From NCBI GenBank assembly GCA_013151865.1, contig JAADHN010000152.1, positions 1-33,446 of the forward strand: a stretch of DNA of 33,446 nucleotides. The letters run 5' to 3'. Shown here in pieces: positions 32,912 to 33,446 of the stretch. This stretch comes from Kiritimatiellota bacterium (lineage in GTDB: Bacteria > Verrucomicrobiota > Lentisphaeria > Oligosphaerales > JAADHN01). Each line of letters starts with the position of its first letter. Position 1 is the stretch's first letter. The notes beneath the pieces are model-generated. The model searched no databases. It saw only the letters and a program-made list of their open reading frames with translations, and was not told the DNA's origin. The translations under genes and the position numbers were made by a program.

Positions 32912-32939
32912 TTGACTTCACGCCCCCGACTGTTAGAGT
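32912..32939 (+). promoter_or_regulatory. Predicted promoter of tRNA-Asn
   Basis: TTGACT (32912-32917) and TAGAGT (32934-32939) are separated by 16 bases. TG at 32931-32932, one base before the -10 box, adds an extended -10 element. The tRNA begins 37 bases after the -10 box, leaving a short 5' leader. It is a sequence-based prediction. Confidence 0.6.
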
Positions 32940-32975: not shown

Positions 32976-33050
32976 TCCGGCGTAGCTCAGCGGTAGAGTA
33001 GGTGGCTGTTAACCACTTGGTCGTAGGTTCGAATCCTACCGCCGGAGCCA
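32976..33050 (+). tRNA. tRNA-Asn (anticodon GUU)
   Basis: This 75-base gene folds fully: acceptor TCCGGCG/CGCCGGA, D stem GCTC/GAGT, anticodon stem GGTGG/CCACT with loop CTGTTAA (anticodon GTT), and T stem GTAGG/CCTAC with loop TTCGAAT. The 3' CCA is encoded and the discriminator base is G. All stems pair, so the gene is intact. An upstream promoter and a downstream terminator are present. Confidence 0.97.
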
Positions 33051-33059
33051 TTTTTTTGA

Positions 33060-33096
33060 ACCCGGGACGTGCTTTTGCGTCTCGGGTCTTTCTTTG
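33060..33096 (+). terminator. Rho-independent terminator after tRNA-Asn
   Basis: CCCGGGACG (33061-33069) pairs with CGTCTCGGG (33078-33086) with one G-T pair, around an eight-base loop, followed by TCTTTCTTTG. The stem plus T-rich tail is a clear intrinsic terminator. Seven Ts also follow the CCA directly at 33051. Confidence 0.8.
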
Positions 33097-33099
33097 TCG

Positions 33100-33260
33100 T
33101 CCGGCGGTGGGATGAGAACCGTAGGTTCGAGCCGAGCGAACGACAATGAGCGAGACGGGCCGCCCGCGAAGCGGGTCGGCAACGAGGCCATAGGCCGAAG
33201 TGGCAATCCTACCACTGGCCTGTCTCGCCGTAGCCGATAGGCCAAGGCGGAAGCCATTTT
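33100..33260 (+). repeat. Degenerate tRNA-Asn copy interrupted by palindromic inserts
   Basis: Four blocks of the upstream tRNA recur in the same order: TCCGGCG (33100-33106), CGTAGGTTCGA (33120-33130), AATCCTACC (33205-33213) and GGAAGCCATTTT (33249-33260; the tRNA has GGAGCCATTTT). The D and anticodon arms are replaced by 13 bases. The T loop is split by a 74-base insert, and the acceptor region by about 35 bases. The inserts contain a hairpin CCCGC-GAA-GCGGG (33163-33175) and a long-range stem GCGAGACGGGCC (33150-33161) with GGCCTGTCTCGC (33217-33228), fully paired in RNA with one G-U. It lies directly before a GIY-YIG nuclease gene. Confidence 0.75.
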
Positions 33261-33289
33261 CCAGAACGCCCGGCCCGTTTTGTTTTCCG

Positions 33290-33446
33290 ATGCCGTACTA
33301 CGTCCTCGCGAACCCCGACGACCGCATCTACATCGGGCAGACGCAGGACCTAGACCGCCGCCTCCGCGAGCACAACGATCCCGCCGACCGCACCACCTTT
33401 CACACCAAGCGTTTCCCGGGCCCTGGCGGTTGCTGCATGTTGAAAC
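33290..33446 (+). CDS. GIY-YIG nuclease family protein, 5' part, apparently frameshifted
   Basis: ATG 33290 begins MPYYVLANPDDRIYIGQTQ, matching the GIY and YIG-type strands (YVL and YIG) of the single-domain UPF0213/YhbQ-like nucleases. DLDRRLREHN supplies the conserved Arg and following helix. After HTKRF the family continues with PGPW-(K/R)-L-x-H. Here that reading (PGPWRLLHVE) lies in the +1-shifted frame, implying one base missing between about 33410 and 33424; in the original frame it reads PGPGGCCML. The first strand is also about two residues short. The gene leaves the window at the right edge. It is therefore either a decaying gene or contains a sequence error. The tRNA-like copy immediately upstream suggests a mobile origin. 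Confidence 0.72.
   Translation, partial: MPYYVLANPDDRIYIGQTQDLDRRLREHNDPADRTTFHTKRFPGPGGCCMLK

Follow-up and report, generated by a model that had tools for sequence, protein, structure and literature searches.

Why should a broken second copy of a tRNA-Asn gene lie between the intact gene and a small gene for a GIY-YIG nuclease? This arrangement is found at the 3' end of the window, that is, the whole stretch of 33,446 nucleotides analyzed here, which is the entire contig G000:C27 of a 6.2 Mb draft genome. A preliminary description had read it as a possible selfish unit in which the nuclease cuts tRNA genes and copies itself next to them, with the intact tRNA regenerated and a repeat of its end left over. 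That reading is supported by the recurrence of the layout, by the match of the copied pieces to the local tRNA, and by a shuffle test of the copy; the steps of cutting and copying are ones that we infer. We consider it likely that the window holds a partly decayed member of a widespread group of minimal selfish elements that reside in or directly beside bacterial tRNA genes and that would home as proposed.

An intact tRNA-Asn gene and a broken second copy

All features described for the window are on the forward strand. The intact tRNA-Asn gene (anticodon GTT, 32976-33050) was called by both ARAGORN and Rfam (tRNA family, 70.6 bits), as the preliminary description had it. Upstream of this gene, a consensus scan found a promoter-like site (TTGACT-16-TAGAGT, 32912-32939), which is weak evidence, with 1 such site against 0.2 expected from shuffled sequences. 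Downstream, an intrinsic terminator-like hairpin (33060-33087), with a 12-pair stem followed by a T-rich tail, separates the intact gene from the split copy. When the window's own genome was searched with 32976-33446, no second tRNA-Asn was found, and the remaining matches were weaker ones to tRNA-Thr and tRNA-Met.

The split copy as a whole covers 33100-33260 and consists of four colinear blocks, so the claim of a second, ordered set of tRNA blocks holds. Three of these are the acceptor 5' half TCCGGCG (33100-33106, tRNA nt 1-7), the 5' side of the T-arm CGTAGGTTCGA (33120-33130, nt 47-57), and the 3' side of the T-arm AATCCTACC (33205-33213, nt 57-65). The fourth (33252-33260, nt 71-79) is the acceptor 3' end with CCA and then Ts. 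The four-block chain scored 16, whereas the maximum was 10 both in 1000 dinucleotide shuffles and in 569 equal-length windows from the two strands of the same contig. As originally noticed, the T-arm is broken inside its loop by a palindrome-rich insert of 74 bases (33131-33204) that folds strongly; RNA of 33096-33265 has a predicted folding energy of -78 kcal/mol (z = -3.85), and 0 of 200 shuffles were as stable.

The fourth block reaches past CCA into the T-run and continues as AGCCATTTTCC, the same 11 bases that end the intact tRNA-Asn directly before the nuclease gene in the related locus L055/L012. Given these shared 11 bases, the broken copy may be the decayed remains of a tRNA end that used to lie immediately upstream of the window's nuclease gene. 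The TCC..GGA hairpin that occupies the anticodon arm in other members of the family is absent from the window's copy, in which the insert sits in the T-loop instead; the insert could be a longer variant on the palindrome theme or a decayed form.

Two other explanations of the copy were rejected. The genome contains the motif CGCCGTAGCC..AAGGCGGA at a single place (33226-33251), and this motif is therefore not a local dispersed repeat. An intron of group I or of the archaeal tRNA type does not fit a tRNA that is intact and complete, and no Rfam intron family was matched. Rfam families besides tRNA were found neither in the window nor in 16 element loci, and in this same set the nuclease gene lies outside any intron or intein, i.e. 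it is free-standing.

The GIY-YIG frame of the window and two more genes in its genome

The GIY-YIG frame reported to follow the copy was recovered, with an ATG at 33290 and a match to PF01541 (E 6.5e-8, residues 4-40), although in truncated and shifted form. Since the window is the whole contig, the gene (33290-33446) is cut off at 33446. Its nearest relative, L055, is 88% identical over 41 columns and also lies beside a tRNA-Asn. Compared with this relative (L055/L012), the window's frame has a one-base shift near 33414-33422, which could reflect either genuine decay of the nuclease gene or a misassembly at the end of the contig. The window's own frame stops before the conserved Glu.

The same genome contains a better preserved locus on contig C64 (L004), in which tRNA-Met, a terminator, a GIY-YIG gene, GGCTCATAA, a palindrome, and a 3' part of the tRNA are found in that same order. 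The palindrome is perfect (TCCCGC-tca-GCGGGA), and the 3' fragment is an exact copy of tRNA-Met nt 48-77 with the same terminator. The end of contig C64 falls within an exact repeat of 91 bases whose unit measures 385 bases, which is what a tandem array would produce.

This genome has one more GIY-YIG gene, its third (L005, G000:C28:1-207), which encodes a protein of the SGSG..RHF type and is truncated at the contig start. All three small GIY-YIG genes of the genome are at contig ends. A junction of contig C28 with C27 was considered and rejected, as the nuclease type differs and the two are not continuous.

Small GIY-YIG genes recur beside tRNA genes

Hits were collected with PF01541 in 60 relatives, with a 15-member profile in 289 genomes of the phylum, and by a protein-level search across 84,980 species genomes. 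The resulting set, from related genomes and several phyla, comprised 202 different small GIY-YIG hits that fall into 180 loci, most of them in metagenome assemblies. A tRNA on the same strand was present within 450 bp of 128 of the 202 hits (122 of the 180 loci). Within this distance, 147 tRNAs were in the sense orientation and 1 was antisense, and the density of tRNAs near the nuclease was 0.87 per kb versus 0.020 per kb beyond 900 bp (∼40-fold). No tRNA was found near the UvrC loci, which are ordinary GIY-YIG genes of the same genomes. About one-third of the loci had no tRNA within 450 bp, and 24 of the 74 hits concerned were near the end of the examined stretch.

The pairing of a tRNA with a small GIY-YIG gene therefore recurs across phyla. 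The layout was found in more than 100 loci, including loci in single-contig genomes, which bears on the suspicion that the window shows a chance resemblance or an assembly artefact. The position of the element at the contig end and its shifted frame could suggest as much, but none of the 1000 shuffles or 569 contig windows reached the observed chain score, and this result together with the recurrence refutes such a reading, to which we give almost no credence.

A phage or plasmid origin was also rejected: L055 had no tblastn match in collections of phages or plasmids, and 11 weak hits on viral contigs lacked a tRNA. When compared with PHROG families, L055 weakly matched "homing endonuclease" (E 7e-4), and L004 had no match.

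A distinct GIY-YIG subfamily, recognized by ILRLRSGQLYVG, was present in L008, L009, L011, and L015. It lies 197-291 bp behind tRNA-Asn or tRNA-Gln in L008, L009, and L015, mostly without fragments, and L011 had no tRNA in the examined stretch. This subfamily may be a separate tRNA-linked lineage.

Flanking fragments are pieces of the local tRNA

In ∼45 loci, the nuclease gene was flanked by a fragment of the same local tRNA. Among nuclease hits with a tRNA upstream only, 31 of 104 had a fragment of that tRNA downstream; among those with a tRNA downstream only, 11 of 19 had a fragment upstream. These are also the counts of the layout that resembles mobile ORFs, in which the nuclease gene lies between an intact tRNA and a piece of the same tRNA. 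When fragments were compared with the local tRNA and with same-isotype tRNAs of other loci (n = 45), the local tRNA matched better in 39 cases, tied in 6, and lost in none. In addition, the copies are not tied to tRNA-Asn, as fragments of nine other isotypes (Met, Pro, His, Ser, Val, Ala, Cys, Leu, and Lys) were found beside other nucleases of the family.

Despite differing tRNA sequences, the fragment breakpoints were constant within a nuclease clade. Fragments of tRNA-Met covered nt 48-77 in 6 of 6 clade I loci, those of tRNA-Pro covered nt 45-77 and 1-28, those of tRNA-His nt 36-77 and 1-25/27, and those of tRNA-Asn nt 1-37 and 49/54-76. In well-preserved elements the fragment usually lay beyond the nuclease gene or upstream of the intact tRNA; the window differs, having a degenerate copy between its intact tRNA and nuclease gene. 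From these results, the trio of tRNA, copy, and nuclease first described in the window is a recurring one, but the order seen there, with a degenerate copy in the middle, is not usual.

Palindromes near the inner edge of the fragments

A perfect stem of at least 5 pairs was found near the inner edge of 50 of 58 fragments (at least 6 pairs in 45 of 58), against 15 and 5%, respectively, in random windows of the same loci. The palindrome usually replaced or interrupted part or all of the anticodon arm, and the common type was TCC-N3-loop-N3-GGA with variable inner pairs. Among 30 hairpins of one type, pairs 4-6 used two to three pair types; these hairpins had been selected as palindromes, and only this variety is informative. 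In several members, L059, L060, and L063 among them, the TAA in the anticodon loop of the fragment serves as the end of the nuclease frame.

Palindromes of the form TCCGYC..GRCGGA, like those of the stubs, were dispersed genome-wide in G321 (168 places; locus L056) and G326 (134 places; L061), and G323 and G324 had only 3-4 of them, some at the tRNA locus. The proposal that all element palindromes are genome-wide REPs fits G321, G326, and perhaps G260, but was rejected as a general one: G323, G324, and G305 have few palindromes, and some or all of these lie at the tRNA locus. A separate palindromic repeat of 75-90 bp in G129 (L211, reverse strand 2441-2529) was found in ∼40 dispersed places (∼80 matches on both strands), with fewer copies in congeners; it looks like a REP-type repeat that is unrelated to the tRNA element.

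The palindromes allow for a hairpin-based mobility like that of REPs and their transposase, in which an enzyme related to structure-specific nucleases of the SLX1 type would recognize hairpins or cruciforms formed by the palindrome or by the tRNA gene. Their high frequency and variable stems, the dispersed copies in G321 and G326, and the fold of the nuclease, which best matches UPF0213 and SLX1 (see below), would all suit such an enzyme, and REP/TnpAREP provides a precedent (PMC8266576). This explanation does not sit well with the few, partly tRNA-bound palindromes of G323 and G324 or with the different, longer structure of the window's insert, and we regard it as unlikely.

The tRNA isotype follows the nuclease tree

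In a tree of 116 nucleases, which was built from 80 columns and has many weak forks, tRNA isotype follows the nuclease tree, requiring 47 changes against a mean of 82.2 when shuffled (0 of 200 shuffles as low). Clade I, to which the window's protein belongs, is mostly found with fragments and is divided into subclades that each keep to one isotype (Met, His, Ser, Pro, or Asn). In clade II, with the C-terminus SGSG..RHF, the gene mostly follows a tRNA (Ala, Val, Leu, Pro, and others) at a distance of 110-300 bp; its members have few detectable fragments, mostly none. The window's protein pairs with that of L055, from a Lentisphaerae MAG, and tRNA-Asn is likewise the neighbor of every one of the next relatives (L056-L060 and L063), which come from Kiritimatiellaeota, Synergistota, Aminicenantes, and Verrucomicrobiota.

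In the Verrucomicrobia MAG OFTM167 (L022/L061), a tRNA-Asn-like palindrome stub is followed by a tRNA-Asn-type nuclease gene that contains an in-frame stop, and the closest intact tRNA-Asn is ∼1.46 kb upstream.

Clade I nucleases are ∼80-95 amino acids long and consist of the bare GIY-YIG catalytic domain (PF01541 match of L055, E 6.9e-15). Residues Y6, Y16, G18, R26, E66, and K70 are invariant in alignments A2 and A3, and catalytic-type residues are conserved. The predicted structure of L055, the nearest intact relative of the window's protein, is one ordered GIY-YIG domain of 84 residues (pLDDT 93.6), and its nearest solved structures are the UPF0213 proteins BH0048 and EF2693 and the catalytic domain of SLX1, an enzyme that acts with SLX4 on branched DNA. 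A separate DNA-recognition domain was not found in the 84-residue L055, and the only other Pfam match was to the related T5orf172. Known GIY-YIG homing enzymes such as I-TevI carry extra DNA-binding parts; judged by the model, a bare domain without an added DNA-binding part would be unusual for a homing enzyme.

The nearness of the UPF0213 proteins, the strict same-strand arrangement, and the closeness to tRNA genes would also be expected of a domesticated, UPF0213-like housekeeping nuclease that uses tRNA promoters, with the fragments as unrelated debris. Such a role is hard to reconcile with the patchy presence of the gene, its tandem arrays, the pair of occupied and empty sites described below, the match of the fragments to the local tRNA, and a tRNA partner that differs by clade. 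We judge a housekeeping role quite improbable.

Tandem arrays and an occupied tRNA-His locus

Loci such as L041, L164, L057, and L069 contain tandem arrays, in which each unit is 361-397 bp long and has tRNA sequence at its borders; in L207 (several copies) and L170, it is the 5' half of the tRNA that is arrayed. A unit of 361-397 bp can accommodate the GIY-YIG gene and nothing more, which leaves no place for an integrase gene. tRNA genes are classic targets of integrases, and 3' tRNA fragments are typical of attR, which is why the fragments could be taken for attachment remnants of integrase elements with the GIY-YIG gene as leftover cargo. Three observations speak against ordinary integration at tRNA sites: the ∼360-400-bp units have a single gene, the fragments are both 5' and 3' and mostly interrupted by palindromes, and the nuclease clade follows the tRNA isotype. 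We consider this origin highly improbable.

Two species of one genus provided the sole syntenic pair of an occupied and an empty site. A tRNA-His locus is occupied in G129 and empty in G205, with both flanks conserved. The order in G129 is the old promoter with tRNA nt 1-27, a palindrome, a second promoter with the whole tRNA-His, and the nuclease gene. The stub's promoter is identical to that of G205 at 46 of 48 positions, whereas the promoter of the intact tRNA is identical to the stub's at 38 of 49. Because of this divergence, the intact tRNA-His of G129 may have arrived with the element. The tRNA bodies of the pair are identical, and no difference is therefore visible by which the intact tRNA could escape being cut by its own nuclease. 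The flanks of the same locus leave no room for a nuclease gene in G309, and in G173 the locus has no nuclease match.

Empty sites were sought for other loci, and these candidates were rejected. For L203, L180, and L205, the flanks were on different contigs or matched paralogues; for L159, congeners have unoccupied tRNA-Val genes, but no alignable flanks.

In G148, one cassette of spacer plus nuclease gene starts directly after the CCA of both tRNA-Val and tRNA-Ala. In this genome, tRNA-Ala is also separated from a clade II nuclease gene by tandem spacer units of ∼180 bp (L155, G148:C5:13850-15100). Parts of the L155 spacer lie behind tRNA-Val or tRNA-Ala in G289, G191, G242, and G227, where the match comes without a nuclease; these are possibly non-autonomous derivatives.

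The arrays raise another alternative, a SegB-like amplifier, in which breaks in tRNA genes would lead to in-place tandem amplification of tRNA plus nuclease and a higher tRNA dosage, with little or no spread. The tandem units bordered by tRNA sequence and the several 5' half copies of L207 resemble its products, given that SegB of phage T6 cuts within tRNA genes and makes 718-bp repeats of tRNA-Tyr plus segB (PMC13096335). Most flanking copies are dead tRNA fragments, however, and tRNA dosage is therefore not raised; the cassette behind two different tRNAs in G148 and the diverged promoter before the intact tRNA at the occupied G129 locus also count against amplification in place, for which we see only a small likelihood.

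Discussion

The reading that we prefer is that of an element that would invade tRNA genes by homing or amplification set off by its nuclease, and that is made up of one small nuclease gene and the intact target tRNA, to which clade I adds one or two leftover pieces of tRNA. The nuclease would cut or nick an unoccupied tRNA gene in a clade-specific way, and a resident element would supply the template for repair of the break, its flanking tRNA sequences serving as recombination arms. Such a repair is predicted to yield a complete, functional tRNA and the nuclease gene, and to leave the split original behind as a remnant with a palindrome. As tRNA sequence borders every unit, recombination between copies could then give rise to the tandem arrays. 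The palindrome may keep the stub from being cut again, or it may be a structure that the enzyme recognizes. The window would accordingly be an array of an intact tRNA-Asn with its terminator, a degenerate tRNA-Asn copy, and a GIY-YIG gene that is broken or truncated at the contig end.

tRNA genes are essential and can be single-copy, and their harmless invasion would for that reason be a neat solution for selfish DNA; a single gene of ∼80 codons with recycled pieces of tRNA seems to be enough for it. If this mechanism is correct, it explains the small GIY-YIG genes beside tRNA genes in many bacteria, and it provides a source of tRNA pseudogenes and possibly of some short palindromic repeats. 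The nuclease would also be a very small natural model for how a target is chosen by an enzyme without an obvious DNA-binding domain.

Are these elements new? In a search of the open literature, with preprints and most subscription papers outside it, no description of the tRNA-element layout was found, and the group is apparently undescribed so far. The earlier statement that no named system has this layout thus stands for the layout itself, but not for the mechanism, as related ones (SegB and mobile ORFs) are published. The stronger proposal is that of a previously undescribed class of minimal mobile elements in Verrucomicrobiota-type, Synergistota, Patescibacteria, Bacteroidota, and related genomes, in which a bare GIY-YIG enzyme is combined with a palindrome-bearing pseudo-tRNA end marker, clades are specialized by isotype, the tRNA is fully regenerated, and the palindrome is perhaps recognized by the enzyme; taken as a whole, we see this proposal as evenly balanced between being right and being wrong.

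Relation to known systems

Two systems share the bare fold or the palindromes. The UPF0213 proteins BH0048 and EF2693 and the catalytic domain of SLX1 have the same bare GIY-YIG fold but are not described as tRNA-linked. REPs with TnpAREP (RAYT) likewise tie short palindromes to a small nuclease-type enzyme, but this enzyme has another fold, and the system has no tRNA fragments.

CPR bacteria contain GIY-YIG proteins in non-intron insertions of rRNA genes (PMC11270868). These resemble the tRNA elements in placing a GIY-YIG gene in a non-intron insertion of a structural RNA gene, and they are found in some of the same bacterial groups; their target, however, is rRNA rather than tRNA, and they are sparse.

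The mobile ORFs of fungal mitochondria (Allomyces and Glomus; atp6, atp9, cox2, and nad3) are nuclease genes inserted at the end of a gene, which carry a replacement gene end while the displaced original stays downstream (PMC3630166). The combination of a nuclease gene with a gene-restoring part and a leftover, displaced original end is common to both systems. The mobile ORFs differ in that they are in mitochondrial protein genes, mostly encode LAGLIDADG enzymes, and have no palindrome described in the remnant. Furthermore, their carried end is a diverged foreign copy, whereas the fragments of the tRNA elements match the local tRNA, and only the promoter comparison in G129 hints at a foreign copy.

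According to the part of PMC13096335 that was consulted, SegB is a free-standing GIY-YIG homing endonuclease of T-even phages that cuts within tRNA genes and drives tandem tRNA plus segB repeats by homologous recombination, and its phage homologues are near tRNAs of many isotypes. A GIY-YIG enzyme beside tRNA genes and tandem repeats of tRNA plus nuclease are therefore features of both systems. In contrast, SegB is phage-borne, and the same part of that source reports no isotype preference and describes no palindrome-bearing tRNA stubs. The tRNA elements share features with SegB, the mobile ORFs, and the CPR rRNA insertions, and they are set apart from them by their host, their target, their isotype-specific clades, and their palindrome-bearing tRNA stub.
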